Of a stretch of DNA of 64,000 nucleotides, positions 11,978 to 32,137 are shown piece by piece. A model generated the notes under the pieces. The model saw only the letters and a list, made by a program, of their open reading frames with translations, ran no database searches and had not been told where the DNA came from. Position 1 is the stretch's first letter, and each line of letters opens with the position of its first letter. The DNA comes from Alphaproteobacteria bacterium LSUCC0396 (GTDB lineage Bacteria > Pseudomonadota > Alphaproteobacteria > Puniceispirillales > Puniceispirillaceae), in the NCBI GenBank assembly GCA_041228345.1, contig CP166131.1, forward strand, positions 124,001 through 188,000, given 5' to 3'. A program made the position numbers and the translations under genes.

Positions 11978-14900
11978 ATGACACAGCAGGCATACACCCC
12001 GCAGGATAAATCAGGATGGCAATTCTGGGTCGATCGGGGTGGCACATTCACCGATCTTGTTGCGCGGGCGCCCGATGGCACGCTGACAACGCATAAACTA
12101 TTGTCGGAAAACCCCGAGGCCTATGAAGACGCGGCCTTACAGGGGATCCGCGATATTCTGGGTCTGGCATCTAACGCGCCATTGCCAGCGGCGGCAATTG
12201 ATGCGGTGAAAATGGGCACGACGGTGGCGACAAACGCGCTGCTGGAGCGAAAAGGCGACGCTACATTGCTGGTCGTAACCAAGGGGTTTCGTGACCAGCT
12301 GCGCATTGCCTATCAGGCGCGTCCGCGTTTGTTCGACAAAGAAATCATCCTTCCCGAAATGCTGTATGACCGTATTGAAGAGGTTATTGAGCGTGTCGAT
12401 GCCAAGGATAATGTTCTTATCCCGCTGAATCTGGATGATCTGGCACCGCGCCTGCAGGCGGCGTTCGACGATGGTATTCGGGCTATTGCGATTGTTTTGA
12501 TGCATGGTTACCGCGTGCCGGCGCATGAATTGGCGATTGCGGAACTGGCGCGCAAAATCGGCTTTACGCAGGTTTCAACAAGCCATGGCACCAGCCCGAT
12601 GATCAAATTTGTCGGGCGCGGCGATACCACCGTTGCCGATGCCTATTTATCGCCGATCCTGCGCCGCTATATTGGCCGGCTGGCAAGCGATATTGACCAG
12701 TCAAAGGGCGCCAAGCTGCAATTGATGCAATCGAATGGTGGCCTGACCGATGCCAGCCTGTTTCAGGGCAAGGATGCGATTTTATCTGGCCCCGCGGGCG
12801 GCATTGTTGGCGCGGTAAAGACTGCCAAACAGGCAGGGTTTGACAAGGTTATCACTTTTGATATGGGCGGCACATCGACCGATGTTGCGCATTATGAAAA
12901 TGCCTATGAGCGAGTGTTTGACACGGTTGTTGCGGGTGTCCGGATTCATGCGCCAATGCTGTTAATCCATACGGTTGCGGCTGGTGGCGGCTCTATTTGC
13001 CGGTTTGAACATGGCCGCTTTCAGGTTGGGCCGGAAAGCGCTGGGGCCAATCCGGGGCCTGCCTGCTATCGGCGCGGCGGCCCGCTGGCGGTTACCGATT
13101 GTAATGCGATGCTTGGCAAGCTGCAGCCGCAATATTTTCCTCATCTGTTCGGCCCCAACCAGGATGAGGCGCTGGACGTTGCGCCAGTGCGCGCCGGTTT
13201 TGCCGCTCTGGCAGCCGAGATTGAGGCAGAAACCGGTATCCGGCGCAGCGAAGAAGAAATCGCCAGCGGGTTTTTACGCATCGCGGTTGAAAATATGGCG
13301 AATGCGATTAAGAAAATCTCGGTTCAGCGCGGCTATGATGTGACTGAATATGCGCTGCAATGTTTTGGCGGGGCAGGTGGCCAGCACGCCTGTCTTATCG
13401 CTGATGTCTTGGGAATGAAAACCGTTTTGATCCACCCGTTTGCCGGCGTTCTATCGGCCTATGGCATGGGGCTGGCGGATGTTACCGCGCTTCGTGAGCG
13501 CACGCTTGAAGCAGGGTTTGACGCTGGCCTGATGGCGCGGCTGCAGCGCGAGCTGGATGAGCTGGCCGCACAAAGCGAGGATGAGCTGGCCGGTCAGGAT
13601 ATTGCCAGCGCGCGCATTGAAACCCATCGTTATGTTCATCTTCGTTATGATGGCTCGGACACGGCGTTGCCAGTGCCGTTTGGATCAATCGCATCGATGA
13701 CCGCCGATTTTGAGGCTGCTTATCAGTCTCGTTTTGGCTTTTTGATGCCCGATAAAGCGGTTGTTGCTGCCACCATCTCGGTCGAGTCAATTGGCCGGAA
13801 CTTTGATGTTGAAAACAATGTCACCGCCGCATCCGATGCGCCGCTGGAAATTCTGGATCATGTCCGATGCTTTATGGACGGCCAGTTTGTCGAAACGCCG
13901 GTTTATGCCCGCAGCGCGATTGCCGCTGGCCAACGCATTATGGGGCCGGCGCTGATTGCCGAGGCAACCGGAACCAATGTTATCGAGCCGGGCTGGCAGG
14001 CAGAAATGACCGATATTGGCAATCTTGTTGTCCGGCGTGTTGTTCAGCTGGCGCCGCGCGTTGCAATTGGCACAAGCTGTGATCCGGTCATGCTTGAGGT
14101 GTTCAATAATCTGTTTATGTCAATTGCCGAACAGATGGGCTATACCTTGCAGAACACGGCATTGTCGGTAAATGTCAAGGAACGGCTGGATTTTTCATGT
14201 GCCATCTTTGATCCCGAGGGCGCCTTGATTGCCAATGCGCCGCATATGCCGGTGCATCTTGGCTCGATGGGCGAGTCCGTTCGGGCGGTCATTCGCAGCA
14301 ATGATGGCAATATCAATGCCGGTGATGCGTTTGTGCTGAATAATCCCTATAATGGGGGCACACATCTTCCAGACATTACCGTGATTACGCCGGTATTTGA
14401 CGATGATGGGCGCGATATTCTGTTTTTTGTCGCCTCTCGCGGGCATCACCCCGATGTTGGCGGCCGCACCCCCGGATCAGCGCCACCTGACTCGAAACAT
14501 ATCAATGAAGAAGGTGTTCTGATTGATAATTTCAAGCTGGTTGATGGCGGGGTTTACCGCGAAGCTGAAATGCGGGCGATTCTGAACGGGGCAAAATATC
14601 CAGCCCGTAATACCGATCAGAATATTGCTGACCTGCGGGCGCAATTGGCGGCAAATGAAAAAGGCGTCCGTGAATTGCATAAGATGGTTACGCATTACGG
14701 CCTTAAAACAGTCGTTGCCTATATGGGCCATGTTCAGGACAATGCCGAAGAATCTGTGCGCCGCGTTATTGATGTGTTGAAAGACGGCAGCTTTACCTAT
14801 CCCATGGATAATGGTCAAAAGGTTAAAGTCACGATTTCGATCGATAGGGCCAGCCGGTCAGCCACCGTTGATTTCACCGGTACCAGCAAACAGGGGGCGA

Positions 14901-15622
14901 ATAATTTTAACGCACCTGCGGCTGTATGTCGTGCAGCTGTTTTGTATGTTTTCAGAACCTTAGTGGCTGATGATATCCCGATGAATGAGGGGTGTCTAAA
15001 GCCGGTTGAGATTATTCTTCCCGATGATTGCATGTTAAAGGCGCAATATCCGGCCGCGGTTATAGCTGGGAATGTAGAAACCTCGCAGATTGTTACCGAT
15101 ACGCTCTATGGTGCGCTTGGCGTGATGGCGGCAGCGCAGGGCACCATGAATAATTTCTTTTATGGCAATGCCACTTATCAATATTACGAGACCTTGTGCG
15201 GTGGGTCGGGCGCGGGGCCAGATTTTGACGGTACTGATGCGGTTCACACCCATATGACCAACAGCCGATTAACCGATCCCGAAGTGCTGGAATGGCGCTA
15301 TCCTGTATTGCTGGAAAGTTTTGAAATTCGGCATGGATCGGGCGGTGCAGGCCAGCATAATGGCGGTGATGGCGTTCGGCGGCGATTGCGGTTCTTGGAA
15401 GATATGGAGGCGGTTATTCTCGCCAATCATCGGATCGTTCCGCCGTACGGGATGAATGGCGGCGATAACGGCGCCCTTGGCCGGAATTGGGTCGAGCGCA
15501 CCGATGGCACCATTGAGATGCTGACCGCAACCGATATCCGCCAGATGAGTAATGGTGATGTGTTTGTTATCGAAACACCCGGTGGTGGCGGCTTTGGCAA
15601 AAGTAATAGGGCGGCTGAGTAG
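11978..15622 (+). CDS. 5-oxoprolinase / N-methylhydantoinase A-B fusion
   Basis: 1214-residue cytoplasmic enzyme of the ATP-dependent 5-oxoprolinase (OPLAH) type. The N-terminal HyuA-like half begins [21 protein letters not shown] and carries the actin-like phosphate motifs ([29 protein letters not shown]). The C-terminal HyuB-like half (from about residue 700) includes [17 protein letters not shown] and [14 protein letters not shown], and ends in [15 protein letters not shown]. Full-length fusion of both subunits is typical of 5-oxoprolinase, which opens 5-oxo-L-proline to glutamate in glutathione turnover. A hydantoinase with another cyclic-amide substrate cannot be excluded. The next gene, a MarR-like regulator, starts 20 bp downstream and may share the transcript. 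Confidence 0.92.
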
Positions 15623-15642
15623 CCAGTAATAAAGAGAGCGCC

Positions 15643-16203
15643 ATGACCCAGCATGAAACAGCAAAACCGGATGCCAAGCGAATTGTATCGTCATCGCATC
15701 TTGTGTCGGAAAAGGCCGCCGAATTAAGCGAGGTTGAATATGGGCTGATCGTCGCGTGGAACGCCTTTGGCAAATGGATGGTAAAGGCCATGGCAACAGC
15801 GGTTGCTGATGCCGGGATCACGGTCAGCGGCGGGACTGACCTTGGAGTCCTCGATATTTTATGTCTGCATTCTGTCAACCATCGGGCGCGACCAAAAAAA
15901 CTGGCAGATATCTGCTTTAAATTGAATGTCGACGATACCCATACCGTCAATTATGCGCTGAAAAAACTATTGAAAGCTGGCCTTGTCAGCAGTGAAAAGC
16001 ACGGCAAGGAAGTGCTTTATGCCACGACAGCGGCTGGTATTGATCTCTGCCTTCGGTATCGCGCCGTGCGTGAGGCTTGCCTTGTTGACGGATTTGTTGC
16101 GTTTGACAGCGGCAGCGGCGCGGAACTGGCTGAAGTTGCGCGCCAATTACGGCTTTTATCGGGGCTTTATGATCAGGCCGCGCGCAGTGCAACCAACCTG
16201 TAA
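15643..16203 (+). CDS. MarR-like winged-helix regulator
   Basis: 186 residues. A winged-helix domain is visible around residues 65-145: LGVLDILCLHSV, then KLADICFKLNVDDTHTVNYALKKLLKAGLVSSEK (cut here for length as KLADICFKLNVDDTHTV and LKKLLKAGLVSS), followed by a wing with TTAAG. It resembles the alphaproteobacterial MarR-like group annotated as a predicted transcription regulator. Its position directly after the oxoprolinase gene suggests, by inference only, control of that gene or of amino-acid metabolism. Confidence 0.75.
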   Translation: MTQHETAKPDAKRIVSSSHLVSEKAAELSEVEYGLIVAWNAFGKWMVKAMATAVADAGITVSGGTDLGVLDILCLHSVNHRARPKKLADICFKLNVDDTHTVNYALKKLLKAGLVSSEKHGKEVLYATTAAGIDLCLRYRAVREACLVDGFVAFDSGSGAELAEVARQLRLLSGLYDQAARSATNL

Positions 16204-16330
16204 ACCCCAATTATGGGCAAATTGGCGGTAATGTCGGGCTGGAGCCTTGCCAGAAATCAGCCAAATGGTTACACCATTGCAATGCCTTTTTCGGTGGGCA
16301 AACCGATCAATATTAAAAAGTGAAGTTGTG

Positions 16331-17638
16331 ATGACAATAGCAAAGTCAGGTTTAAGAATCGCTATCGCTGGCCTTGGAGTTGTTGGGTCTGAGGTTGCAC
16401 GCCAATTGATGAGCCGCGCAGACGATCTTGGCATGGCGGCAGGACAGCCGCTTCATCTGGTTGCGGTCAGTGCGCGCGACCGTTCAGCCGATCGTGGCTT
16501 TCAGCTGGATAATATTGACTGGCATGATGATGCAGTTGCGCTAGCGGGGCGAGATGACGTCGATATCATTGTCGAGATGATTGGTGGCAGTGAAGGGCCT
16601 GCGCTGGAACTGGCGCGTAAATCACTGGCGTCGGGCAAGCATTTTGTGACCGCCAACAAAGCCATGATCGCACATCATGGTACCGAGCTTGCAAGGCTTG
16701 CCGAGCAGAACAACGCAGCCTTGATGTTTGAAGCCGCGGTTGCTGGCGGCATTCCTGCGGTAAAAACCCTTCGCGAAGGTTTGGCCGGTAACCAGATCAG
16801 CCGCGTTGCTGGCATCTTAAACGGTACGTGCAATTATATTCTTTCGACCATGGAGAGCAGTGGCGCAGGGTTTGATGACGTGCTGGCAGACGCCCAGCGC
16901 CTAGGCTATGCCGAGGCCGAGCCTAGCTTTGATGTCGATGGCATTGATGCGGCGCACAAGCTGACCATTCTAGCTGCGATTGCGTTTGGCCAGCAGCCTG
17001 ATTTCAATGCGGTGTCTATCCAAGGGATTCGTGATGTATCGTCGGTTGATTTTGCCTATGCAAATCAGCTTGGGTTCAGAATCAAACTCGTTGGGGTTGC
17101 TGAACCGGGCCTAATGCCGCGGATGCAGACCTGTATGCTGCCGCTTGATAGCCAGCTTGCCAAAGTCAACGGCGTGCTGAACGCGGTTGAATTTCATGGC
17201 GCGCCAGTTGGCAGTGTGCTTGCGGTAGGCCCGGGAGCGGGCGGTGGCGCAACATCATCTGCAGTGCTTTCAGACCTGATTGACATTGCGGCGGGGCGGG
17301 GCGGCCTTGCATTTGGCAAGCCGGTGGATCAGCTGACTGATGCCAGCGGCGTCAGAAACGGGGCAGGGCCGGATAAAGCATTTTATGTGCGTTTGATGGT
17401 TGTTGATCAACCGGGCGTTTTGGCAACGGTAACAGCGATTCTGCAAAAGCATGATATTTCGGTAGAGGGTTTGCTCCAGCAGGGGCGCGCCCCAGGTGAT
17501 GTTGTTGCGCTGGTTATGACGACCCATGAAACGCCGGTTGCCAGCATGACCCGAGCACTGGATGAGATGGAACAGCTGCCAATTGTTAATGCGAAACCTG
17601 TCGCAATGCCGATCTTGCCTGCGGATATGGAGAGCTGA
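16331..17638 (+). CDS. hom: homoserine dehydrogenase
   Basis: 435-residue NAD(P)-dependent enzyme reducing aspartate semialdehyde to homoserine, the branch point to threonine and methionine. I start at ATG 16331 (MTIAKSGLRIAIAGLGVVG); the frame is open further up but those residues are not conserved. Seen: the Rossmann motif GLGVVGSEV, GKHFVTANKAMIAHHG, GILNGTCNYIL, the catalytic FDVDGIDAAHKLTILA region, and a C-terminal ACT domain from about residue 350 (VVDQPGVLATVTAIL). Its stop overlaps the recJ start (TGATG). Confidence 0.96.
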   Translation: MTIAKSGLRIAIAGLGVVGSEVARQLMSRADDLGMAAGQPLHLVAVSARDRSADRGFQLDNIDWHDDAVALAGRDDVDIIVEMIGGSEGPALELARKSLASGKHFVTANKAMIAHHGTELARLAEQNNAALMFEAAVAGGIPAVKTLREGLAGNQISRVAGILNGTCNYILSTMESSGAGFDDVLADAQRLGYAEAEPSFDVDGIDAAHKLTILAAIAFGQQPDFNAVSIQGIRDVSSVDFAYANQLGFRIKLVGVAEPGLMPRMQTCMLPLDSQLAKVNGVLNAVEFHGAPVGSVLAVGPGAGGGATSSAVLSDLIDIAAGRGGLAFGKPVDQLTDASGVRNGAGPDKAFYVRLMVVDQPGVLATVTAILQKHDISVEGLLQQGRAPGDVVALVMTTHETPVASMTRALDEMEQLPIVNAKPVAMPILPADMES

Positions 17639-19449
17639 TGTCGAAGGACGCTTTCCTTGGCATTACTCAATCGGCAAGCGGGGCGCGCTGGATCGGCGCT
17701 CCAAATCAGCTAGCAGGGCCGAATCAGGAGCGGCTAGCCGCTGCACTTACGGAATTTTTTGATGATTTGCCGATGCCGCTGGCACGAATCATGGCCGGTA
17801 TGGGCCTAACTCCAGAGACTGCATCACATTATGTTGATCCGAAAATCCGTGATCTTTTACCAAATCCGTCACGTTTCAAAGATTTGGACAAGGCCGCAAA
17901 CCGGCTGGCCGATGCGGTAATTGGCAAAACACCTATTGGAGTTTTTGGCGATTACGATGTTGACGGCGCAGCAGCGGCCGCCTTGCTGATATGTGTTATG
18001 CACGAACTTGGGGTGAATTGCGATGTTCACATACCCGACCGCTTTACCGAAGGCTATGGGCCTAATGTCGGGGCATTGATGGCACTAAAGGAAAAGGGCG
18101 CCGCGCTGTTGGTAACAGTTGATTGCGGTATTACCGCCCATGCGCCGCTGGCCGCGGTTGCCGATACAGGGCTGGATGTGATCGTAATTGACCATCATAT
18201 TGCCGGGCCTGAATTGCCGCGGGCACATTCGGTAGTTAACCCCAACCGGCTCGATGAGGACGGCCAATATGGCTATCTTTGTGCCGCTGGTGTGGTTTTT
18301 ATTGTGCTTGTCGGGATGGTGCGCGCATTGCGTGAAAAGGGATATTTCACCGCTGGTACAGCTGCGCCTGATTTGCTGGCCTATCTCGACATTGTCGCAT
18401 TAGCCACGGTTTGTGATGTCGTTCCGCTGCAAGGGCTAAACCGTGCCTTTGTCCGTCAGGGTTTAAAGGTGATGGCAGAACGCCGGCATCCGGGTTTGAC
18501 CAAGCTGGCGGATGTTGCCGGCATGAATAATGCGCCAAACACCTATGCGTTTGGCTTTTTGCTCGGCCCACGCATAAATGCCGCTGGCCGGATTGGCGGG
18601 TCGGGTCTGGGGGTAAAGCTTTTGGCGTGTCGGGACACCGACGAGGCGGCGGGGCTGGCGCTTCGGTTGGACGAGATGAACCAACAGCGCAAAAAAATCG
18701 AAGACGGCATTAGAATTGCCGCGATCGACCGTGCGGCCGATAATGAAAACCCCGTTTTGATTCTCCATGATAAAGACTGGCATGAAGGGGTCATTGGCAT
18801 TGTTGCAGGGCGGGTGCGCGAACGTTTCGGCAAACCGGCCTTGATTATTGCGATGAATGATGACGGAACAGGGAAAGGCTCTGGGCGCAGTATCCCCGGG
18901 TTTCGTCTCGGAAATGCAATCATTGCCGCACATCAGGCAGGTATTCTAGAAGGTGGCGGCGGGCATGATATGGCCGCAGGGTTTACCGTGAAGGCTGACA
19001 AGATTACCCAGCTGCAAGGGTTTTTGAATGACCGCCTTATGACTGATCTTAACGGCGTTATCCCGCAGGCAATTCACAAAGCCAGTGGTCTGCTCAGCAT
19101 TGCTGGGTGCAAACCTGACCTTGCTGATTGGCTAGACCGACTTGGCCCTTTTGGTAGCGGCAATCCCGAACCGCGCTTTGTGATCCCCGATTGCCGAATT
19201 AAATCGGCCAAATTTATTGGTGAGGCGGGCGCGCATCTTTCCTGTCGACTGGATGATGGCAGCGGAACATTGAACGCGATTGCGTTTCAGGCTGGCGGCA
19301 CCCCGCTTGGTCAGGCGGTAAGTGAAGCGCGTGATGGTCACTATCTCCATATACTTGGCCGGGTTCGACGCGATCGGTTCCGCGGCGGCAATGCGATGCA
19401 GTTTGAAATTGATGATGTGGCGGTTCCACCGCTTGCATTTGCCCGCTAG
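17638..19449 (+). CDS. recJ: single-stranded-DNA-specific 5'-3' exonuclease RecJ
   Basis: 603-residue RecJ of recombination and repair. DHH-domain motifs are present: VFGDYDVDGAAAAALL, VTVDCGITAH, VIVIDHHIAG (the DHH), followed by VVNPNR. The DHHA1 domain has HDKDWHEGVIGIVAGRV and the GGGGHDMAAGFTV block, with an OB-fold tail near residues 490-600. Full length. It overlaps hom by one base, the alphaproteobacterial hom-(glpX)-recJ neighbourhood, and is followed by tRNA-Glu. Confidence 0.97.
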   Translation: MSKDAFLGITQSASGARWIGAPNQLAGPNQERLAAALTEFFDDLPMPLARIMAGMGLTPETASHYVDPKIRDLLPNPSRFKDLDKAANRLADAVIGKTPIGVFGDYDVDGAAAAALLICVMHELGVNCDVHIPDRFTEGYGPNVGALMALKEKGAALLVTVDCGITAHAPLAAVADTGLDVIVIDHHIAGPELPRAHSVVNPNRLDEDGQYGYLCAAGVVFIVLVGMVRALREKGYFTAGTAAPDLLAYLDIVALATVCDVVPLQGLNRAFVRQGLKVMAERRHPGLTKLADVAGMNNAPNTYAFGFLLGPRINAAGRIGGSGLGVKLLACRDTDEAAGLALRLDEMNQQRKKIEDGIRIAAIDRAADNENPVLILHDKDWHEGVIGIVAGRVRERFGKPALIIAMNDDGTGKGSGRSIPGFRLGNAIIAAHQAGILEGGGGHDMAAGFTVKADKITQLQGFLNDRLMTDLNGVIPQAIHKASGLLSIAGCKPDLADWLDRLGPFGSGNPEPRFVIPDCRIKSAKFIGEAGAHLSCRLDDGSGTLNAIAFQAGGTPLGQAVSEARDGHYLHILGRVRRDRFRGGNAMQFEIDDVAVPPLAFAR

Positions 19450-19569
19450 GCCTCAAATTTCATCTTGCTTTGAAAGGTTTTTAGGAAAAACGCAAAGAGA
19501 TGATAAAAGCGGCTTGATTTGCCCGCCGCTTTTGACTAAGACAAGCACCACTAGCTTTGCTTTTAAGAT

Positions 19570-19647
<78 letters not shown>

Positions 19648-19700
19648 GCCTTTTTCTAAAACATTGATTTCTTTATAAATACAGAATTTTTACCTAAATT

Positions 19701-19720
19701 TAGGTACCTTTTAGGTACCT
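19701..19720. promoter_or_regulatory. paired TAGGTACCT sites at left end (candidate integrase/excisionase arm sites)
   Basis: TAGGTACCT occurs at 19701 and 19712, 11 bp apart, about 55 bp inside attL. The same word followed by TTTT is found inside the right end at 31970. Confidence 0.55.
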
Positions 19721-19823
19721 TTTTTTGTGTCTTGAAACGCAAAAAAACTTATTTGAGAACATATCTTACGAAGCCTAACTGGCTCAATCTGACACTGATT
19801 ACAACCAATCAGTGAGTTAGATA

Positions 19824-20024
19824 ATGACTACTATTAATCACAAATTTTACACCATCAGCGACATAGCTACGCTGTTCAACGTGCATAAAAATACGGTGAG
19901 GCGTTGGCGAGATAATGGCGAAATACCAAAGCCAATTTCTATCAACTCTCAGTCTTTGTTTTGGCCGAAAGAAATTTTTGATGAGTTTCTTACCGAAAAA
20001 CAAAACGAAGGCCGACCTCAATGA
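19824..20024 (+). CDS. AlpA/MerR-type helix-turn-helix protein (candidate excisionase or regulator)
   Basis: 66 residues with a single helix-turn-helix (YTISDIATLFNVHKNTVRRWRDNG, i.e. ISDIATLFNVHKNTV then RRWRDNGEIP), the AlpA/MerR/excisionase fold. Such proteins in tRNA-integrated islands act as excisionase or as activators of integrase. It is the first gene inside the left end, about 180 bp from attL and close to the AGGTACC sites it might bind. The function is inferred from fold and place. Confidence 0.7.
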   Translation: MTTINHKFYTISDIATLFNVHKNTVRRWRDNGEIPKPISINSQSLFWPKEIFDEFLTEKQNEGRPQ

Positions 20025-20109
20025 TAGCGGCGCTTCTAATCCCGCTATCACCCCGCGCTAAAAAATACCCTCGGGGCTGGCCTACAGTGGCCTGTGAGAG
20101 CTTTTAACT

Positions 20110-21042
20110 ATGTTTCCGCTGCTGATCAAAGCCGTAAAAGCGGAAGGGCTTGAACCGCCAGAAAAGGCCATTCTTATCCAAATTGCTGATTTAACGAACC
20201 AGCTAAAGGGTAAGCAGTCGTGGCCGTCAGAGGAATATCTGGCGGTAAAAACCGGTTTTGGCAGAAAAACGGTCAGCAGGGCAAAGAAGAGCCTTCGCAA
20301 TCGCGGCATCCTTAATTGGGTATCGCCAAAGCAAAGCCGTATTAAAAACAGCTCCTGCATCTATACAATCAATGAAAAAGAACTCGATAAGCACCTACCA
20401 AACACTGCGCCTGCTTCGCTTGGGATGGGTCACTGTGACCCATCTGTGGCGGTGGAAGCGGTCAAAGGGTCCGTTGGTGAGGGTCATATTGACACACAGG
20501 TAGGGTCAGAAAGTCCCACAAGCAGGGTCATAGAGTCCATCTATACACCTACTACTCCAATTAAAATACTCTTAAGCGATACGAACCGCAGTAAGAGATT
20601 AGAAAATGATATTGGGTTTTTAACGATTGATAACTGGCTGGAGATGGCTTGCAAAGAACGCCGGTACCAAGATCCAAGGCCAGCGGAAATCAGAGAGCAC
20701 ATTTGGATGGATTATCAGATCCTACACAAAGAGTTTAATCGGCAGCTTTTTGATTTATTGGGCATCAGCCAAAAGCAATGGGCTTTGGGTGTGAAAAAAT
20801 ATAATGAGCAATACAGGTTAAGGCCAACTGGTAACGAACTAGAAAGGCCAAACCTAAAGGCGTTTTATGCATTAATGCGGTTTATAGCCTCGCCAGACCG
20901 CTCTGATGATGTCTGGGCTGCAAGTCGGCGGTGGCGGGCTTCCAAAGCCGTCACTGACCGAGAAAACGCGATTAAAAGATCTGCACTTGAAAGGCGCTTA
21001 GATCAGCTTGGCAAGCTAACTTGCTTGACGCCTTTAGAGTAA
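20110..21042 (+). CDS. putative replication initiator with internal origin
   Basis: 310 residues. The N-terminus (residues 10-95) is a winged-helix domain of the kind found in plasmid and phage replication proteins (LEPPEKAILIQIADLT, WPSEEYLAVKTGFGRKTVSRA, LRNRGILNWV). Residues ~105-150 form a low-complexity linker whose DNA contains a 21-bp palindrome and four 22-bp iterons. A basic C-terminal domain with several Trp residues follows (GISQKQWALGVKKYNEQYRLRP). This plan, a DNA-binding domain, a linker encoding the iterons and a C-terminal loader-recruiting domain, mirrors phage lambda O. The function is inferred from architecture; no residue-level homology to O is claimed. Confidence 0.6.
   Translation: MFPLLIKAVKAEGLEPPEKAILIQIADLTNQLKGKQSWPSEEYLAVKTGFGRKTVSRAKKSLRNRGILNWVSPKQSRIKNSSCIYTINEKELDKHLPNTAPASLGMGHCDPSVAVEAVKGSVGEGHIDTQVGSESPTSRVIESIYTPTTPIKILLSDTNRSKRLENDIGFLTIDNWLEMACKERRYQDPRPAEIREHIWMDYQILHKEFNRQLFDLLGISQKQWALGVKKYNEQYRLRPTGNELERPNLKAFYALMRFIASPDRSDDVWAASRRWRASKAVTDRENAIKRSALERRLDQLGKLTCLTPLE
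20424..20546. other. candidate replication origin: palindrome plus four 22-bp iterons inside the initiator gene
   Basis: A perfect 21-bp palindrome (10-bp arms, 1-bp centre) spans 20424-20444. Iterons begin at 20459, 20481, 20503 and 20525, exactly 22 bp apart, each with GGTCA at positions 2-6 and, in three of the four, GTCC at positions 11-14 (the copy at 20481 has GACA there). An AT-rich stretch follows (20550-20620). Confidence 0.65.
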
Positions 21043-21059
21043 AAAAATAATGTTATCGA

Positions 21060-23315
21060 ATGTTAAATATTAAATTAATATTTACTGCTGCCGGATTAGT
21101 GGGGCTCTTCGGACTGGTGGGCTGCCAACAGCAGACCTCCAACACCAATGTCACAGTAAATGTTTCTAGCAAGGCCACCGTTAGTGCCTATGACTCTGGT
21201 GGTTCAGTTTCAACAACCGAATACGCGTATTCTGATGCTCAACCAGACAAAGTAGACTTGGATTTGGTTATGACATTCGAAGATGCTGCGCGGTTTGAAA
21301 GCAGAATTGGTATCGGCGCTCCATTGAAAAGAGTGAAACGCTACGTTGGCAAAACGCGGCGTGAAGCTATACAGCTTGTTGTTTCAGAGCTGGAGAATTA
21401 TCAGGATGATTTTTTGTGGCCGGACTGGGTCAATAACGTTACACCCATAAGCTTTTTTGAACGGGCAAAGAAAAGAAATAAATTCTATTGCGGTGAGTCG
21501 ATGTTTGAAGACTCGCTAAGAATGGAACTTTCTAAAAAGTTATTGGTTTCGAAGACGCCTCAATTTGAGAGGTTGTTTTTGGTTTGGCTGGATCACTTTT
21601 CTGTGGAGTTTAGAGCTTATTCCCAAAGTCACGCTTATGCAGAGCATATGCGCCTAGTTAGAGAAAACTCTAACCGGAGTTTTGTGGATTTACTAGTTAA
21701 TGTAGTTAATGACCCTGGATTGATAGTTTACCTAAACAATGACTCCAGCACCGTAAAAAAGCCAAACGAGAACCTTGCACGCGAGTTTCTAGAATTATTC
21801 TCTCTGGGCGAGGGCAAATATAACGAAAAAGACATCAAAACACTGGCAAAAGTAATAGCCCCTTATGGTATTAATTTTGTGTCTGAAAAGCCGAGTTGGT
21901 TTTCATCCAAGGCGTCAGGTCGCGAATTTAAAGCGTTCGGCCAGACTTATAAAAACTTCAATGAATTTGTTGAGCTAATATCCAATCGCGCTGATTTTGG
22001 AGAGATGATCGCACGGAAATTCTACCGAGAATTTGTCAGCGTAAAACCTCCAAAACCAAATGATATCGCGATTATGATGTCTTCTTTTCGAAAATCTGGA
22101 TTTTCGATACCAAAACTGTTTGAAGCTACAATCAGTTTAGGGTCATTTTGGTCGGAGGAAAGCAGACTGAATATTGTCAAAAGCCCCATAGAATTACTCT
22201 ATGGTTCCGCTCGGACACTTGGTTTTGCGGGTCAAAAAATGGATGATCATATTTGGATGATGGCGTTCGCAACTGAGCTGGGGCAGGACTTATTTAATCC
22301 TCCAAACGTTGCAGGTTTTCCTGGTGGGACAGCTTGGGTAGCCGGTCAAATGATGGAAAAGCGTATTGAAATCGTTAATCGTATGTTCGGTGATTTCAGT
22401 CAAAGCTCAGCAGGTATGCAATCCACGCAGAAAACAACAAAAATGGATGCAGCAAGGTCAAGAGGTCAGCAATCTCGCATTAAAGAAGTTGATGCCTACA
22501 GAGCTGAACGCATAAAGTTTTTCGAGAATTTAAAAAAAGATCAATTGGGCGTTGAGACGATATTGCTCAACGAAGTTACCCGAGACTTTGAAAAAAACCG
22601 TTGGCGTAAAATTGAAGCAGCTTTTTACAACGTGCAGCTGAATGGACGTAAATGGGACGGTATAACGATCCGATTTGGTAATGATAAGAATGATGGTGGT
22701 AGGTACGGTGATCACTTAAGATTAGAGCAGGGCAAAAGCAGCCCTGATGCTTTTGATCAGTCTGCGTACAATAGAAGTTTCACAAATGATAGGGGTCTTC
22801 GAACAGTCAAATTTTCTTATCCCTCAGGAGGTGATCAACGCGGAATGCCATCGGCCACCGAGGACAAGCTGTTAGTAGAACGTTTGTCGCAGGCAATGCA
22901 GATTGTGATCGACCACAACAGAGCTTACACCCAGTTGTCTGTTAACTCAGCAGCTCAAAAATGGCTTAAGCAGTTTTTAGATAAAGTTGGGTGGAAGGAG
23001 TTGTCTGAAAATGGCCAGACCTATCCACCAGTGAGAATGTTCGCGATAGAAAATGGTGTTTTAGGGGGCGGCAGCAGTGGAGGGACTCCTTATCCCAAAA
23101 TGCGCCCATTTCGTTGCGGCTTTAATCAGACAAAACATAATTTTGTCGAAGCTCGGCAAATTCCGGCGGAGTTTGATGATTTCAGCTTGGGTGGAGCAAT
23201 TGCGGAATTAGAAGAGCAAAACCTCATAACGCTTTTGCTACCGGATTTATCGAGTCGGTTAGGCGACATCAGTGTCAAGCAAGCTCTAACGCACGAAGGC
23301 TATCAATTGAGGTAA
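21060..23315 (+). CDS. DUF1800-family lipoprotein
   Basis: 751 residues. The N-terminus is a lipoprotein signal (lipobox LVGC, Cys22). The DUF1800 core is recognisable from FLVWLDHFSVEFRAYS, through VNDPGLIVYLNNDS, PNENLAREFLELFSLGEG (near residue 240) and YREFVS, to FNPPNVAGFPGGTAWVAG (about residue 420). About 300 further residues without recognised motifs follow. DUF1800 genes typically pair with DUF1501 genes, as here (4-bp gap). The pair is exported and of unknown function; roles at the cell surface have been proposed. Finding the pair as cargo of a small mobile element is unusual. Confidence 0.85.
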   Translation: MLNIKLIFTAAGLVGLFGLVGCQQQTSNTNVTVNVSSKATVSAYDSGGSVSTTEYAYSDAQPDKVDLDLVMTFEDAARFESRIGIGAPLKRVKRYVGKTRREAIQLVVSELENYQDDFLWPDWVNNVTPISFFERAKKRNKFYCGESMFEDSLRMELSKKLLVSKTPQFERLFLVWLDHFSVEFRAYSQSHAYAEHMRLVRENSNRSFVDLLVNVVNDPGLIVYLNNDSSTVKKPNENLAREFLELFSLGEGKYNEKDIKTLAKVIAPYGINFVSEKPSWFSSKASGREFKAFGQTYKNFNEFVELISNRADFGEMIARKFYREFVSVKPPKPNDIAIMMSSFRKSGFSIPKLFEATISLGSFWSEESRLNIVKSPIELLYGSARTLGFAGQKMDDHIWMMAFATELGQDLFNPPNVAGFPGGTAWVAGQMMEKRIEIVNRMFGDFSQSSAGMQSTQKTTKMDAARSRGQQSRIKEVDAYRAERIKFFENLKKDQLGVETILLNEVTRDFEKNRWRKIEAAFYNVQLNGRKWDGITIRFGNDKNDGGRYGDHLRLEQGKSSPDAFDQSAYNRSFTNDRGLRTVKFSYPSGGDQRGMPSATEDKLLVERLSQAMQIVIDHNRAYTQLSVNSAAQKWLKQFLDKVGWKELSENGQTYPPVRMFAIENGVLGGGSSGGTPYPKMRPFRCGFNQTKHNFVEARQIPAEFDDFSLGGAIAELEEQNLITLLLPDLSSRLGDISVKQALTHEGYQLR

Positions 23316-23318
23316 AAG

Positions 23319-24485
23319 ATGAAGAGACGAGATTTTATTAATTTTGCAGCAACAACTGCGCTTTTTGCGCTGTCACCGTTCTCTATATCAGCGAGACCAA
23401 ATAGCAAAATTCTCATACTAATAGAGCTGCAAGGTGCCAATGACGGCTTAAATACTGTCATACCAACAAAAGATAATGGTTATTACAAGCTGCGACCCAA
23501 CATAGCGATACCCAAAAAAGACATCTTAGGTATTGATACAAATTATGGGTTACATTTCAGTTTAAAGGGTTTAGCCGACCTCTGTGGCTCTGGTGATTGC
23601 AGCATTATTCAAAATCTCGGCTACCCAAACCCAATACTTTCTCACTTTCGGTCCATTGAGCTTTGGGAGAGGGGTGGTGACGGCAAACAGAATGGCAGAG
23701 AGGGATGGTTAAACGCCACCCTCGAGGCCTTGGCTGATAAAAGCTCGCTGGATGCAAAAGCAATGAACCTCGACAACGTGGGAACTGTTTTTGCTGGAGG
23801 AACCGACGGTTATCTGGGCCCTAATGCAATTGGTTACAGACCTGTAGAGGCTGAGTCACGTGACACCACCGTTCCGTTGCCGAATAACATCGAAATGGGA
23901 TTGCTTGGCAATTTGCAAAAAATGCGAGTTGAAAACGAAATAAAAATTTCGCGGCTCCAAGCAAAGATTAGCAAGGCTAAAAGCTCTGTATTTGTCGGGC
24001 GAGGTGAGTTGGGAAATCAACTATCAAAAGTTTGCCAGCTCATAATGGCAGGTGTAGAAATACCAGTTTTCAAAGTCTCAATTGGCAGCTTTGATACCCA
24101 TATCGAGCAGTTTTGGAAGCATCGGAACCTTTTGCGTGACCTGGATAAGTCAATCTCAGACACAGTAAGAACCCTAAAAGAAATTGGTGTATGGAACGAT
24201 ACAATAATTATGACATATTCTGAATTTGGACGGCGGGCGAAAGAAAATGGATCTCGTGGCACTGACCACGGTATGGCTGCGCCCCATTTCGTTTTAGGGG
24301 GAAAAATCAGTGGCGCAGTTTATGGAGAGGAAAATGTTTTGAACTCTGTGGCAGACAGTAATCTTAGGTTTTCGATTGATTACAGATCTCTTTACAATGA
24401 AATATTGTCAAAGCATTTTGGGTTCCAAGATAATCAGTTTGTAACCTACAAAGATAAAACTTTGGATGGATTGTTTAGCACATAG
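23319..24485 (+). CDS. DUF1501-family secreted protein
   Basis: 388 residues with a twin-arginine-like start (MKRRDFINFAATTALFAL). DUF1501 belongs to a sulfatase/alkaline-phosphatase-like fold. Visible core segments are LILIELQGANDGLNTVIP, YGLHFSLKGLADL, PILSHFRSIELWERGG, FDTHIEQFWKHRNLL, IIMTYSEFGRRAKENGSRG and TDHGMAAPHFVLGG. The TYSEFGRR and DHG blocks are family hallmarks. It is the immediate partner of the DUF1800 gene and is probably exported with or after it. The enzymatic role is unknown. Confidence 0.88.
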   Translation: MKRRDFINFAATTALFALSPFSISARPNSKILILIELQGANDGLNTVIPTKDNGYYKLRPNIAIPKKDILGIDTNYGLHFSLKGLADLCGSGDCSIIQNLGYPNPILSHFRSIELWERGGDGKQNGREGWLNATLEALADKSSLDAKAMNLDNVGTVFAGGTDGYLGPNAIGYRPVEAESRDTTVPLPNNIEMGLLGNLQKMRVENEIKISRLQAKISKAKSSVFVGRGELGNQLSKVCQLIMAGVEIPVFKVSIGSFDTHIEQFWKHRNLLRDLDKSISDTVRTLKEIGVWNDTIIMTYSEFGRRAKENGSRGTDHGMAAPHFVLGGKISGAVYGEENVLNSVADSNLRFSIDYRSLYNEILSKHFGFQDNQFVTYKDKTLDGLFST

Positions 24486-24561
24486 CCTGTTCATTGCCGG
24501 TTTCTTATTTGATAGAACGCCATTTAACGGCCACAACCTCGATATGTTGTGGATGATTTAG

Positions 24562-25227
24562 TTGGTGTTACGGCAAAAGCTTCCTTCGACAGCAAGTGTC
24601 GTTCACAAAACAAGCGGGGGTCAACTGCATTCTCCAGCTGCAGAAAGAAATTCAGCCCAAATCATTGAGCTTGTTCGCAGTTCTGTGCCGGAAAGTGGTA
24701 ATGCTCTGGAAATTGCAAGTGGCACCGGCCAACACATAGTTGAGCTTGCCGCTGCTGTTCCCGGCTTGATCTGGCAACCGTCTGACATAGACGAGACCCG
24801 CTTGAATAGCATTGTCTCAAGAAGCCTTGCAAAACAGTTACCAAACCTTTTGCCGCCTATAAGACTGGATGTAACAGATAAAGGCTGGTCAGCCCTTTGC
24901 CCCAATCAAGACTTCATCTTGCTGGTTAATCTGTTGCACCTTGTCAGTGAAGCTGAGGTAAAAGCAATCATCAGTGGGATTTCTCAATCCCTAGCTGAAG
25001 ATGGGCGTTGCGTCATTTATGGCCCGTTTATGCGAAATGGTGTTCTCAGCAGCAGTGGTGACAAAGCCTTTCATCAGAGCTTGATAGATGCTGATCCAGA
25101 TATTGGTTATAAAGATGATCAGTGGATCCTTGAGCTCTTTCAGAAACACCGCCTTGCAACCATCAACGTTATAGAGATGCCAGCTAACAACTTGGCTTTC
25201 GTTATTGAGAAGGGCACTTCTATATGA
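24562..25227 (+). CDS. DUF938 SAM-dependent methyltransferase-like protein
   Basis: 221 residues. The DUF938 signature is clear: HSPAAERNSAQII, then the SAM-binding ALEIASGTGQHIVELAAAVPGL and LIWQPSDIDETRL, and later FILLVNLLHLVSE and GRCVIYGPFMRNG. The start is TTG 24562 or GTG 24565; the first ~25 residues are not conserved and the true start may be later. Substrate unknown. It lies 76 bp after the DUF1501 gene on the same strand and is the last rightward gene of the element. Confidence 0.8.
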   Translation: MVLRQKLPSTASVVHKTSGGQLHSPAAERNSAQIIELVRSSVPESGNALEIASGTGQHIVELAAAVPGLIWQPSDIDETRLNSIVSRSLAKQLPNLLPPIRLDVTDKGWSALCPNQDFILLVNLLHLVSEAEVKAIISGISQSLAEDGRCVIYGPFMRNGVLSSSGDKAFHQSLIDADPDIGYKDDQWILELFQKHRLATINVIEMPANNLAFVIEKGTSI

Positions 25228-25616
25228 CCCTTCCTGCAAAAAGGTACTTCCACAGGTACTATTAAGCGGGTTATGCGCGAACGCAACATTCCGCTAGCGA
25301 CAGAATTATAGTTAATATTTCGCTTCGTAATTGATCTATAAAATATTGAATTATATATACAAAAATATTTTAAAAAGAATCTTGCTTAAGCTTTATCCCA
25401 GAATGCTCTCGTGCGCAAGGGTATGGATAAAATGGCAACGCGCATCTATCTCTCCAATTGATAGTAAAAACGTGCCACAAAAAAAGGCCAGCGCAAAGGC
25501 TGGCCTTTTGGGTTTGCAGGAGTAATTACAAAGACATTCCAACATTTATCTCTGTTGATTAGCCATCAGCGTTAGTATCACCTCAATTATGTTCAGCAAT
25601 CAGCTTAAACTGAGTT
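25228..25616. other. gene-free stretch at the meeting point of the two gene blocks of the element
   Basis: 389 bp between the rightward (DUF938) and leftward (cold-shock) blocks. It contains one copy of the terminator repeat (25473-25512) and otherwise AT-rich sequence. A 64-codon plus-strand frame runs through the repeat and is judged spurious. Confidence 0.65.
25473..25512. terminator. terminator-repeat copy 1 (bidirectional)
   Basis: Stem GGCCAGC/GCTGGCC flanked by A7 on the left and TTTT on the right, so it can terminate transcription from both sides. It begins with the same TGCCACAAAAAAAGGCCAGC as the other full copies. Confidence 0.8.
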
Positions 25617-25823
25617 TTATAAAGCCTTTAGATTTACTGCAGAAGTCTTTCCATTTTGACCAGTCTCAAGTTCGTAAGACACCTCCTGGTCTTCCGCTAA
25701 TCCAGTCATTCCCGAATTTTGAACGGCTGTGATGTGAACAAATACATCAGTTGATTTGTCTTCTGGCTCAATAAAACCAAAACCCTTTTGTGAATTAAAC
25801 CACTTAACTTTTCCTACGCTCAT
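25617..25823 (-). CDS. cold-shock domain protein
   Basis: 68-residue single-domain cold-shock protein. RNP1 appears as KGFGFIEP and RNP2 as DVFVHI, with the starting MSVGKVKWFNSQ typical of the family. It binds single-stranded nucleic acid and acts as an RNA chaperone. It is carried within the tRNA-Glu element, where it may be cargo or may support element or phage gene expression; the sequence does not decide. Confidence 0.95.
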   Translation of the reverse strand: MSVGKVKWFNSQKGFGFIEPEDKSTDVFVHITAVQNSGMTGLAEDQEVSYELETGQNGKTSAVNLKAL

Positions 25824-26006
25824 AAAATTTCCTTTAAGTCATTGTTATAGGGAAGCGGCTTTTCATTATTGACTACTTGCCACTTACCCTCGCTCTAAAT
25901 TAGAAGAGTTAACGCGTACTAACAGAGTTTGGCTCATAAGTCTTGTTAATATAATTTTGAGTATTTTGGCTTTTTTCATTTTCCGGTGCAGACAGCTGGT
26001 CAGCAA

Positions 26007-26040
26007 AACGAAAAAAAACCAGCGTAAAGGCCGGCCTCGA
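26007..26040. repeat. terminator-repeat copy 2 (diverged)
   Basis: A8 followed by CCAGCGTAAAGGCCGG, a degenerate copy of the GGCCAGCGCAAAGGCTGGCC hairpin, between the cold-shock and cyclic-nucleotide-binding genes, in the same orientation as the other copies. Confidence 0.55.
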
Positions 26041-26114
26041 TTGACGCTCCCTATTACACCAACTCCGTAGCAGCTTAATGCGTGCAAATAGGTAATTGAA
26101 ATTTATATATTTTT

Positions 26115-26516
26115 CTAACTTTTTTCGATAGATTTATAAATATTCAGTTCTCTCCAGTATTTTTCTGCAAGCGCATTTGCGTCACTTATCCTCAACGCAA
26201 GCCCTCGAATAATTGCATTGCATATTGGGTCAGCTTGAGCCATTTTTGCTCTAAATACCGGCTCATCCAACTTGATGAGCATCGCGTTGGTCTTTGCCCT
26301 AACAGTTACGGTTCTTGGTTCTGACGTGATGAGGCCGACTTCGCCAAACAATTCACCTTCATTTAAAACGCCGAGGACCATTCCCTGTTTGCTCTCTATC
26401 TGAACTGAACCAGAATGCACTAAATAGACGCTATCACTGGCATCATTTACGCTGTAAATAACGTCGCCTGCTTTGACCGCCATCTTGGCAAAGTTCTTTA
26501 AGCTTGTCGGTTTCAT
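26115..26516 (-). CDS. cyclic nucleotide-binding domain protein
   Basis: 133 residues, a single CAP-type cNMP-binding beta-roll: VKAGDVIYSVNDASDSVYLV, HSGSVQIES, LNEGELFGEVGLITSEPRTVTV. The Phe-Gly-Glu (ELFGE) and Arg-Thr of the phosphate-binding cassette are present, so nucleotide binding is plausible. No DNA-binding domain or effector is attached. It is a leftward single-gene cassette between terminator-repeat copies. Confidence 0.82.
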   Translation of the reverse strand: MKPTSLKNFAKMAVKAGDVIYSVNDASDSVYLVHSGSVQIESKQGMVLGVLNEGELFGEVGLITSEPRTVTVRAKTNAMLIKLDEPVFRAKMAQADPICNAIIRGLALRISDANALAEKYWRELNIYKSIEKS

Positions 26517-30041: not shown

Positions 30042-30653
30042 TCATTTGAGTGCGCCTTGGTTTCGTAAGTCATAATACTGCCGCGCAGCGGAAACAAAGT
30101 CCAGTTCATCAGCAAACAAAACTGACGCACAATCTTGTCCAAACTGGGCAAATTTGGTGCCGCTGCTGATGCCTTTCGTTGGGGGCATCTTCATATGTTC
30201 CGTAAAGGTTTGGAAACAGGCGCGGGCAAGGGCTAAGCCAACTGGGCTTGCTCCAGATCGCGGTAAAGCTGAGGTTGCTGCCCTAAATTTGGAAATTTCC
30301 AAAACCCAGCTATCAAGCAGTTCATTCGGCCAAATCTCATTTTTCTCGTTTTCGTTTACCCGAAATGTAGTTGAAAAATAGGATCTTGCTGTAGGGTCAA
30401 GGTTTTCAATAGCGATTTTTAGTTTTTTAACCGCAGCCTCTAGTTTGTCTATCTGGGCATCTCTCTGCTTGCCCTTCACAACAATGCCCGGGGGCGGCTT
30501 AGAGATATGACTGCGAACTTTTGCATAAAGCAAAGATGCAAAGAAAATTTGTGCCTCTGTGGATAGTTCTCTTTTTGAATAGAGACCTATTACCTTGGCA
30601 AGGTCACCTTCAACATCTTTAAAGGGGTTGATTTTCACATTAGCTGAACTCAT
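30042..30653 (-). CDS. hypothetical protein coupled to the integrase
   Basis: 203 residues from ATG 30653 (MSSANVKINPFKDVEG) behind AGGGGGG. The start overlaps the integrase stop (ATGA), implying coupled translation. Helical, with a charged stretch IDKLEAAVKKLKIAIENL; no motif recognised and no membrane segment. Small genes of this kind often follow integrases in genomic islands; a role in integration or maintenance is only a guess. Confidence 0.6.
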   Translation of the reverse strand: MSSANVKINPFKDVEGDLAKVIGLYSKRELSTEAQIFFASLLYAKVRSHISKPPPGIVVKGKQRDAQIDKLEAAVKKLKIAIENLDPTARSYFSTTFRVNENEKNEIWPNELLDSWVLEISKFRAATSALPRSGASPVGLALARACFQTFTEHMKMPPTKGISSGTKFAQFGQDCASVLFADELDFVSAARQYYDLRNQGALK

Positions 30654-31927
30654 TTTGCCCCCCTTAAAAAAGCATCCCAATGGGTCATCATTGTTATTCT
30701 TGGCTCAACTGAAACAGAATGGTCGTATGTTTTTCCAACGCCGCGCAGGCTGCGGCTTGATTGAGCTTCAGACATTTCATCAGGGTAGCCGTTCTCTGAT
30801 GCCCAAGTTTTAAAACAATGCCTCATCCCGTGCGCTGTTGGTATGTCTGGCGAGTCAGAATGCCGCCATTCTACAAGCTCGTCTTTGCTGAGAATTCTTT
30901 GCAACATTCGTCTTGGCGCATCATTATCGATTTTTTCACCTCTGGAATTTACAAATATGTATCTACCCGACCCAGTTTGAGGCGCCATTACCTCAAGCAC
31001 TTTACGCATAGCGGGGGATATCCAACATTTAAAGCGGCGCTTTGTTTTTTTGTTTCCCTTCATTTTGTCTGCGGGTATTTCCCAAACATCTCCATAGATC
31101 TCAGACCATTCGGCCTCTGCAGCATTTTCTGGCCGCACTGCGGATAGCATCAACCAAATAAGAACTTGGGATGGACTTGTTTTGATTTGGGTTAAGCGGC
31201 TGTATATCTCGGGGAGGCGGGCATAGTCGACAAAGCCTCTGGGCTTTTCATAATGGGCAACACGCATCGCCTCATCACTTAAATTTATATCTGCAGGGTT
31301 ATCCAGCCTGAGCTCAAATCTGGTGCTTTGAGACAAGCTGAAAATTTGGCGTGTGTTGCGCCACACCTTTTTCATAAGCGGGTTCTTGTTTTCCCACTTA
31401 TTGTCAGCTGTAAGCATAAAGATCACGTCTTTACGCGTAATTTCTGAAATTGACCTATTCCCAAGAACAGGAATGGCGTGATTTTCAACATACGCCCAAT
31501 TTTGCTTCGCAACCTTATCTGATCCCCATTCTTTGTTAACAGCTTTATTATCCCACCAGATGCGTGCAAATTCGGCAAATGTGTATTTGCCGTTTCGGTT
31601 AGACGCTGCCTTTATGGCGGAATCGAACTTTACCGCATTATCACCGAGTTTCAGCGCAGACCTTATTTGATCAACAGAATAGCCTTCCGCAAAATATGAC
31701 TTTGCAAGTTCGTGTTTGCGCTTAGCCACTGCAAAGGTCAGCTCAGAAGGGCTGTAACCGCCAAGATCAAGCGTCTTAACTTTACCGTTGCGCTTCAATC
31801 TTGATCTGAAAGTTTTGCGTTTAGATTGGTAAACCCTTAGCTGTAGATTTCCTCCGCAGCTGAAGTCCGTATAGGGCTTATCTATCTCGCATTTTGCAGC
31901 GCGAACTTCATTGTCTGTTTTGAGCAT
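30650..31927 (-). CDS. int: tyrosine recombinase (phage/island integrase)
   Basis: 425 residues. The N-terminal arm-binding domain (residues 1-90, LRVYQSKRKTFRSRLK) is of the DUF4102 type, followed by a SAM-like core-binding domain (TFAEFARIWWDNKAVNKEWG) and a catalytic domain. Catalytic residues visible: Arg in MLSAVRPENAAEAEWSEI, His-x-x-Arg as HGMRHCFKTWASENG, and the C-terminal Tyr in GVGKTYDHS. It is at the right end transcribed inward and is the presumed integrase for the tRNA-Glu attachment site. Confidence 0.93.
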   Translation of the reverse strand: MLKTDNEVRAAKCEIDKPYTDFSCGGNLQLRVYQSKRKTFRSRLKRNGKVKTLDLGGYSPSELTFAVAKRKHELAKSYFAEGYSVDQIRSALKLGDNAVKFDSAIKAASNRNGKYTFAEFARIWWDNKAVNKEWGSDKVAKQNWAYVENHAIPVLGNRSISEITRKDVIFMLTADNKWENKNPLMKKVWRNTRQIFSLSQSTRFELRLDNPADINLSDEAMRVAHYEKPRGFVDYARLPEIYSRLTQIKTSPSQVLIWLMLSAVRPENAAEAEWSEIYGDVWEIPADKMKGNKKTKRRFKCWISPAMRKVLEVMAPQTGSGRYIFVNSRGEKIDNDAPRRMLQRILSKDELVEWRHSDSPDIPTAHGMRHCFKTWASENGYPDEMSEAQSSRSLRGVGKTYDHSVSVEPRITMMTHWDAFLRGAK

Positions 31928-31950: not shown

Positions 31951-31982
31951 TGGGTACCTATATCACTAAATAGGTACCTTTT
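31951..31982. promoter_or_regulatory. paired GGTACCT sites at right end (candidate arm sites)
   Basis: GGGTACCTAT at 31951 and TAGGTACCTTTTT at 31970, matching the pair near the left end. They lie just upstream of the integrase start, so they could also serve in integrase autoregulation. Confidence 0.55.
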
Positions 31983-32112: not shown

Positions 32113-32137
32113 TTCGAATCCCCTACGGGATGCCAAA
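32113..32137. repeat. right attachment site (attR)
   Basis: 25-bp exact copy of the tRNA-Glu 3' end at 19623-19647, without the rest of a tRNA. Confidence 0.92.

Follow-up and report, generated by a model that had tools for sequence, protein, structure and literature searches.

Does the replication initiator gene of a tRNA-integrated island carry, within its own codons, the origin at which its product would act? The question was raised by one gene in a 64-kb stretch of DNA (the window), which comprises positions 124001-188000 of a one-contig genome of 2.59 Mb (G000:C1) from Puniceispirillales, given in part of PMC12262181 as the order of the SAR116 clade. The gene was analysed together with its island, its homologues in the order and class, and known systems of a similar plan. 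Coordinates of all features are given in Table 1.

Table 1. Features of the island and its initiator gene, in window coordinates.
Feature	Position	Strand	Basis
tRNA-Glu (TTC), integration target	19570..19645	+	ARAGORN
attL core, 25-bp exact direct repeat, at the tRNA-Glu 3' end	19623..19647	+	repeat
Doubled AGGTACCTTTT, putative integrase arm-type sites, one attP arm	19702..19723	+	motif count
AlpA-like small HTH protein (HTH_17), probable excisionase/activator	19824..20024	+	Pfam, PHROG
Replication initiator gene (O-like), 310 aa	20110..21042	+	HTH_36; PHROGs 270, 678, 391
HTH_36 winged-helix DNA-binding domain, residues 13-68	20146..20313	+	Pfam
Perfect 21-bp palindrome with fifth site GGTCACTGTGACC (20428-20440)	20424..20444	.	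symmetric core kept in L002/L031 and L034
Iteron 1	20459..20480	+	sequence, shuffle test
Iteron 2, GACA variant; GACC in L002/L031 and L034	20481..20502	+	sequence comparison
Iteron 3	20503..20524	+	sequence, shuffle test
Iteron 4	20525..20546	+	sequence, shuffle test
AT-richer stretch 3' of the iterons, candidate unwinding element	20547..20626	.	66% AT
C-terminal end from the last conserved W; mostly in another frame than relatives, G-rich end motif gone	20914..21042	+	alignment
Cargo DUF1800 and DUF1501 genes, 17 bp past the initiator stop	21060..24485	+	Pfam
ORF overlapping the integrase stop by ATGA; placed like PICMI iolg	30042..30653	-	ORF listing
Tyrosine integrase, 425-aa open frame	30650..31927	-	Pfam, PHROG
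AGGTACCTTTT, putative arm-type site, other attP arm	31972..31982	+	motif count
attR core, 25-bp exact direct repeat	32113..32137	+	repeat

The iteron array

The four 22-bp iterons and the palindrome claimed in the preliminary description were read directly from the sequence, and all motif details agreed: GGTCA stands at iteron positions 2-6 in all four copies, and positions 11-14 are GTCC in three of them and GACA in the second. The palindrome is itself a 13-bp GGTC-N5-GWCC site in its symmetric version, which makes it a fifth iteron-like site. The array thus holds five 13-bp sites, imperfect dyads with successive spacings of 32, 22, 22 and 22 bp (about three and about two helical turns); in the second iteron, the last base of the site does not fit the pattern.

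The four-copy score of the gene was attained by none of 2000 synonymous-codon shuffles and by none of 2000 codon-order shuffles, with a best period of 22. As 22 is not a multiple of 3, the repeat is a property of the DNA and no amino-acid repeat. The tighter pattern GGGTCANANWGTCC occurs twice in the entire 2.59-Mb genome, both times inside the array, and GGTC-N5-GWCC gave seven strand matches in the window vs 1.49 expected, five of the seven falling in the array (two of these five being the palindrome's two strands).

AT-rich DNA had also been claimed to follow the array. It is present but only moderately rich, the 80 nt after the array having 66% AT vs 53% for the gene and exceeding 97% of the gene's 80-nt windows; the same measure gave 64% in lambda O. 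Three near matches to the DnaA box TTATNCACA (at most one mismatch) were found in 20001-21100 and the L002 gene of the sister species, none of them in the iteron or AT-rich stretch.

The initiator protein and the state of this copy

The winged-helix N-terminus, followed by a linker for which the array codes, was upheld. The N-terminus matched Pfam HTH_36 (E 3.6e-9), and the protein matched PHROGs 270, 678 and 391 (replication initiation / O-like) at 6.6e-13 to 6.7e-11, the O-like PHROGs 678 and 391 at 3.5e-11 and 6.7e-11. The predicted structure of the sister-species protein, of low confidence (mean pLDDT 55.8), has N-domain helices with two strands and a helical C-part; pLDDT falls below 50 at residues 99-152, including the iteron-encoded stretch, and these linker residues look disordered in the model.

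Likeness to lambda O stood for the plan of gene and sites, but protein homology stayed under the thresholds: the initiator scored 20.0 bits against the curated cut-off of 28.7 for Phage_rep_O (PF04492), and hhalign of a family alignment of eight sequences, with the window's own copy left out, against lambda O was not significant (probability 1.3%, E 0.04). Pfam matches up to E 1 included no RepA_N domain (PF06970, the accession given in part of PMC7145576). Nothing convincing came from a PDB sequence search (best E 0.03), and the comparison of folds with known initiators, proposed in the preliminary description, led no further than a generic winged helix, the only kind of hit returned by Foldseek, with no match at E 0.001 or better.

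The last ~40 residues of the window's initiator are in another frame than in L002/L031, L034 and L035, with loss of the conserved end, where relatives have a W and then a short G-rich motif (L005 and L006 too, in similar form). Because of this C-terminal frame change, replication by the window copy is doubtful; the initiator may be inactive here and the island copy partly decayed. Intact relatives exist, so the family can still be judged. A related initiator in G004 has decayed to a pseudogene, and G004 also has a fragment of the initiator gene's end ahead of a DUF1800-type gene, an arrangement matching the window's. Of three named records that have the window's initiator gene, two are Candidatus Puniceispirillum and the third is an alphaproteobacterium.

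The tRNA island

The initiator had been placed in a tRNA-integrated island, and the locus does look excisable, with its exact att repeats, integrase and AlpA-like gene. The island measures 12.5 kb from core to core. The integrase adjoins attR and points inward, and the AlpA-like gene and then the initiator adjoin attL. The AlpA-like protein matched HTH_17 (4e-10) in Pfam, with no match to Phage_AlpA, and PHROG 66, excisionase and transcriptional regulator (6.2e-8). The 11-bp AGGTACCTTTT occurs three times in the window vs 0.02 expected. No family was found in Pfam or PHROG for the ORF that overlaps the integrase stop. Further island genes encode DUF938, cyclic-nucleotide-binding, DUF3764, DUF1330 and other proteins.

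A Pfam scan of 13 island proteins recognised no helicase, loader or primase, and the scanned proteins likewise gave no phage structural gene and no capsid or TerS-like gene. A P-like helicase loader was not found beside the initiator, where the next gene is the DUF1800 gene.

Vacant sites in sister genomes were compared using a right flank that starts ~230 bp beyond the window's attR. In G003, G004 and G007, the tRNA gene lies ~230-255 bp from the matching flank, as expected without the island; in G002 the distance is ~275 bp and the match to the right flank is short. The sequence of G117, a genome labelled as the same species, differs from that of the window immediately beyond the att core, and a different element may occupy the tRNA-Glu there (C219, C113; L050, L051). 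In two sister genomes, several att-like copies of the tRNA-Glu 3' end stand in a row, 1.7-5.6 kb apart (G005:C38, ~6132-13419; G014:C19, ~13456-26972), which points to islands in tandem at this tRNA gene.

Within the window, two unrelated minus-strand ORFs share their first 17 residues (MFFFSLGQPLRWPFFVA; 27858-27908 and 28802-28852), probably through a repeated DNA leader before two cargo genes.

Conservation in sister species

An alignment with homologues had been proposed to see if the iterons are kept while the linker drifts, and it came out in that sense for the sister species, where the iterons are kept and the linker is less conserved as protein. Each of the five sites can be made out in L002/L031 and in the pseudogene L034; the last one is weaker in L031, and in L034 it contains a shift of one base. 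In the four-copy test of L002, 0 of 2000 shuffles attained the score. Between the window and L002, 30 of 41 residues are identical in the ori stretch and 192 of 234 in the rest of the protein. Identical residues (M and W left out) have the identical codon in 28 of 30 cases in the ori stretch and in 150 of 183 elsewhere, a contrast that alone is not significant (Fisher p 0.18; boxes vs spacers p 0.08) and whose direction fits iterons kept while the linker drifts.

The codons for IYTP at 20539-20550 (ATCTATACACCT), just past the iterons, are identical in L002, in L034 and even in the 36%-identical L004/L035; this stretch may be a DNA site besides a peptide motif.

Periodicity in homologues of the order

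The initiator had matches at E 0.001 in 15 of 136 genomes of the order, and in 6 of 61 among relatives, own genome included. For the periodic test, three copies at 20-24-bp spacing were sought in 15 genes of the order (the window's included) and in lambda O as positive control, 16 genes in all, against 1000 synonymous shuffles per gene. L033 (a fragment), L034 (the pseudogene) and L038 (a near copy of L037) were left out. Results are listed in Table 2 beside those of two further tests.

Table 2. Number of shuffles reaching the observed score in three tests of single initiator genes.
Gene	Periodic test (of 1000)	Periodic outcome	Motif-free test (of 300)	Core-motif test (of 1000)
Window	0	passed	3	0
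L031	0	passed	15	5
L034			 	0
L035	0	passed	32	516
L036	3	passed	105	413
L037	488	failed	39	
L039	717	failed	50	40
L040	64	failed	0	15
L041	76	failed	0	82
L042	0	passed	5	11
L043	0	passed	1	58
L044	2	passed	0	2
L045	420	failed	56	799
L046	0	passed	88	133
L047	834	failed	293	1000
L048	936	failed	215	1000
Lambda O	0	passed	0	0

Nine of the 16 genes passed, lambda O counted. The preliminary description had staked its reading on homologues of the protein having iterons, and the outcome went mostly its way: 6 of the 10 more distant homologues with a linker passed, with iteron sequences other than the window's, and the failures were L039, L040, L041 and L045 together with L037, L047 and L048, three short proteins of 94, 112 and 92 aa that lack a comparable linker. 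L042, L043 and L044 are mutually near relatives, so the passing genes of the order make up five lineages. The iteron motifs differ by family, being of GGTCA type in the window, TGT(T/G)GCA type in L042-L044, TGTCA type in L036 and L046, and GTGWAA/TTCAC type in L035; in several of the distant initiators the linker iterons are spaced at 21-23 bp. L035, the closest full-length distant homologue, failed the four-copy fixed-period test (204 of 2000 shuffles); its pass in the periodic test depends on three copies, spaced by 21 and 22 bp.

A motif-free three-copy test with no spacing rule (300 shuffles) was weaker than the periodic test for L031, L035, L036 and L046. A general repeat score over whole genes separated them poorly, the window's values being reached by 44 of 200 shuffles for direct and 21 of 200 for inverted repeats. 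Later tests were chosen with the earlier results and the sequences in view, so the SAR116 homologues were not counted blind. A core motif CA-NAN-NG, supposed to be common to all iterons including lambda's, was rejected after a test on 16 genes, as it had been derived partly from the tested genes and fits only some of them.

The linker of L036 (8442-8873) has three 23-bp-spaced iterons and then 12-bp-spaced AT-rich repeats (TAATAACTTA), and similar CTTAA-bearing repeats lie 3' of the iterons in L042-L044. Such repeats after the iterons might be an unwinding element.

Initiators beyond the order

Searching the class with a profile built from eight initiators gave matches at E 1e-8 in 10 of 289 genomes, own genome included. 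For this class-level set the periodic statistic was fixed beforehand, with 500 shuffles, and genes were not picked for repeats. Four of nine HTH_36 initiators passed (L058, L062, L064 and L065), each with 0 of 500 shuffles and 21-24-bp spacing; L062 and L065 have three perfect 15-mers each, and the repeats of L058 are G-rich and call for caution. The other five genes lay above 0.05, with 32 (L060), 73 (L057), 81 (L061), 84 (L059) and 322 (L063) of 500 shuffles. By this set, iterons inside the gene seem common in HTH_36-type initiators without being universal. The lambda-O plan, which had at first seemed new for a tRNA island, is not special to the window's island: it recurs in related islands and, as a plan of the gene, in some other HTH_36 initiators of the class. 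This recurrence is the more interesting part.

Genomic context of related initiators

Att repeats at nearby tRNA genes were sought at 12 loci, the window included. An exact 15-25-bp repeat encloses both integrase and initiator at five of them, the four besides the window's being L035 (7.8 kb core to core, tRNA-Ser), L036 (6.9 kb, tRNA-Ser), L044 (8.7 kb, tRNA-Glu) and L046 (9.1 kb, tRNA-Asn). A 14-bp repeat near a tRNA gene at L039 was dropped as an att candidate, being AT-only.

The gene order of the window, integrase at one end and alpA-initiator at the other, is also that of L036, L044 and L046; at L035, in contrast to this split arrangement, integrase, alpA and initiator are consecutive on the same strand. 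An AlpA-like gene lies immediately 5' of the initiator at 9 of 18 loci, with L040 as an additional weak case; L035 gave two weak Phage_AlpA matches, below the cut-off. An ORF overlaps the integrase stop in the window, L036, L037, L044 and L046, and three aligned relatives of this ORF are 21-23% identical to the window's. The doubled arm-type motif occurs also in L031 (one copy varied), and L044 has a doubled motif of its own, of other sequence, on both arms.

A phage major capsid gene is present at L035 (PF05065, 2.4e-32; PHROG 617, 6.8e-60), and a protein of L036 is TerS-like by PHROG 7344 (5.3e-9) with no Pfam confirmation, its gene being a probable TerS gene. Capsid and TerS genes are known from satellites. 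The searches made in viral contigs, phage records and plasmid records gave no close relative of the initiator.

In the tRNA-Asn island of G098 (L046, 5966-8311), a UvrD-like helicase gene (Pfam) is followed by an ORF that may be macrodomain-like; together they are possibly a defence module.

Proposed mechanism and alternative explanations

From these sequence comparisons we consider it probable, with good confidence, that the gene encodes the replication initiator for a tRNA island which is satellite-like and can be excised, with the linker codons serving at the same time as the island's origin. The integrase and AlpA would excise a circle in which int, attP, alpA and the initiator lie side by side, and the initiator would be expressed from the alpA operon. 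Winged-helix dimers would occupy the five sites along a single face of the DNA, wrap the DNA and open the AT-rich stretch. The C-terminal domain would then recruit the host replicative helicase, a step proposed because the scanned proteins included no recognised helicase, loader or primase. As the probably disordered linker tolerates residue changes, drift of the protein could leave the DNA sites intact. A helper phage might also disseminate the island, as relatives with a capsid or a probable TerS gene suggest. Replication from the intragenic origin after excision, as claimed at the outset, is thus likely for the family and doubtful for the window copy.

It is a serious possibility, though not the one we would choose, that the family's origin works as proposed and the window copy is a relic, replicating only with the chromosome and serving as a cargo platform. 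The initiator's C-terminal end in another frame with its conserved end lost, an island filled by DUF1800/DUF1501 and other cargo, and the decayed relatives in G004 all favour a relic; yet the integrase and AlpA-like frames are open, the att cores are exact and the arm sites are present, while the frame change could be a sequencing error and initiator C-terminal sequences vary among relatives anyway. That the island is instead a prophage remnant without structural genes, and no satellite-like element of its own kind, appears unlikely. O-like initiators are annotated mostly in phage families, the modules are common to phages and satellites, and L035 has its capsid gene, but compact islands (6.9-9.1 kb between att cores) occupy tRNA genes in four further genera of the order, both the window's int end and its alpA-initiator end are seen in L036, L044 and L046, and no relative of the initiator turned up in the searches made in phage records and viral contigs.

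The repeats themselves might serve as an operator for autorepression by the initiator, or as a partition-like site, with no origin present. Winged-helix proteins often bind such dyads, and the array's role in replication is predicted from sequence; against this, the array lies ~315-440 bp inside the gene with AT-richer DNA after it, and linker arrays recur with other sequence in distant homologues, as in lambda O, a known origin, which makes an operator distinctly improbable. Least credible, to the point of being negligible, is that the repeats are due to chance or imposed on the DNA by an amino-acid repeat: no shuffle of 2000 synonymous ones reached the score, the period of 22 is out of frame and a sister species keeps the repeats, and for the window gene the shuffles and the out-of-frame period refute this explanation.

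An initiator whose linker codons double as the origin is the preferred reading of this gene. We lean, with less assurance, towards a broader one, in which SAR116 bacteria harbour an unrecognised family of satellite-like tRNA islands with a linker origin, and HTH_36 initiators across Alphaproteobacteria are commonly self-iteroned, swappable replicons. The islands would consist of an integrase with an overlapping ORF, attP, alpA and an O-like initiator, and each initiator would have iterons of its own sequence at a shared 21-24-bp spacing. If true, a one-gene replicon, with initiator and origin in the same codons, drives small islands in widespread ocean bacteria and can be exchanged between elements, protein and site staying together. 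The paired drift of DNA-binding domain and iterons would be a natural data set on how winged-helix initiators read DNA, and 21-24-bp-spaced linker repeats would be a simple sequence test for origins of unknown elements.

Comparison with known systems

In lambdoid phages the origin lies inside the initiator gene, as described in parts of PMC7466680 and PMC6022878. Lambda O with ori-lambda resembles the window's gene in having the origin mid-gene, four iterons that are imperfect inverted repeats, and AT-rich DNA after them; the annotated starts of the lambda iterons are 20, 24 and 23 bp apart, and lambda O passed the periodic test as the window's gene did. The window differs in its protein similarity below thresholds, the absence of an adjoining P-like partner gene, another iteron sequence, a fifth site, and an island with no recognised phage structural gene. 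In the RepA_N plasmid pSK41, part of PMC5703833 describes an N-domain that binds four Rep boxes central in the rep gene and a central domain, encoded by ori, that acts as a linker. Sites central within the initiator gene and a linker encoded by the origin would be common to both, but RepA_N replicons of this kind are staphylococcal plasmids, and the window has an island and an initiator with no RepA_N Pfam match.

Gram-negative PICIs share with the window's island a specific attachment site, an integrase and small size, and the island's AlpA-like gene may correspond to their alpA. They often have a capsid gene and sometimes terS, comparable to the capsid gene of L035 and the TerS-like protein of L036; a major capsid gene is reported for 21 of 29 reference PICIs in part of PMC10111431. 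According to part of PMC6092414, PICIs have a primase/rep module, and their origin, located 3' to rep, has an AT-rich region flanked by two sets of iterons. Unlike these, the window has no recognised primase, 17 bp between the initiator and the next gene, and iterons that are intragenic. Vibrionaceae PICMIs, in the part of PMC10803314 concerned, have int with an overlapping gene (ATGA being the most frequent overlap) and alpA at or near the replication gene, and their model requires int, alpA and prim (primase). The window's island is alike in the ORF overlapping int, in an alpA-like gene near the replication gene and in its small size, and lies outside the PICMI definition, having int and an alpA-like gene but no primase recognised among the 13 proteins. 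The prototype PICMI sits at fis, whereas the window's island is at a tRNA gene, has an O-like initiator in the place of prim, and is larger and full of cargo. The PLE of Vibrio cholerae is, by part of PMC7145576, a satellite with its own initiator and iterons, to that extent alike, but it has its origin in noncoding DNA, a RepA_N-like initiator and a large serine recombinase as integrase.

Among the literature matches listed, judged by titles and openings of abstracts and with most subscription papers uncovered, no paper dealt with islands having an intragenic O-type origin. Intragenic origins as such are already known from lambda O and RepA_N plasmids, and the novelty would lie in a satellite-like island with a lambda-type intragenic origin. 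By its gene order and putative sites, the window's island shares its integration end with PICIs and PICMIs and its replication plan with lambda O.
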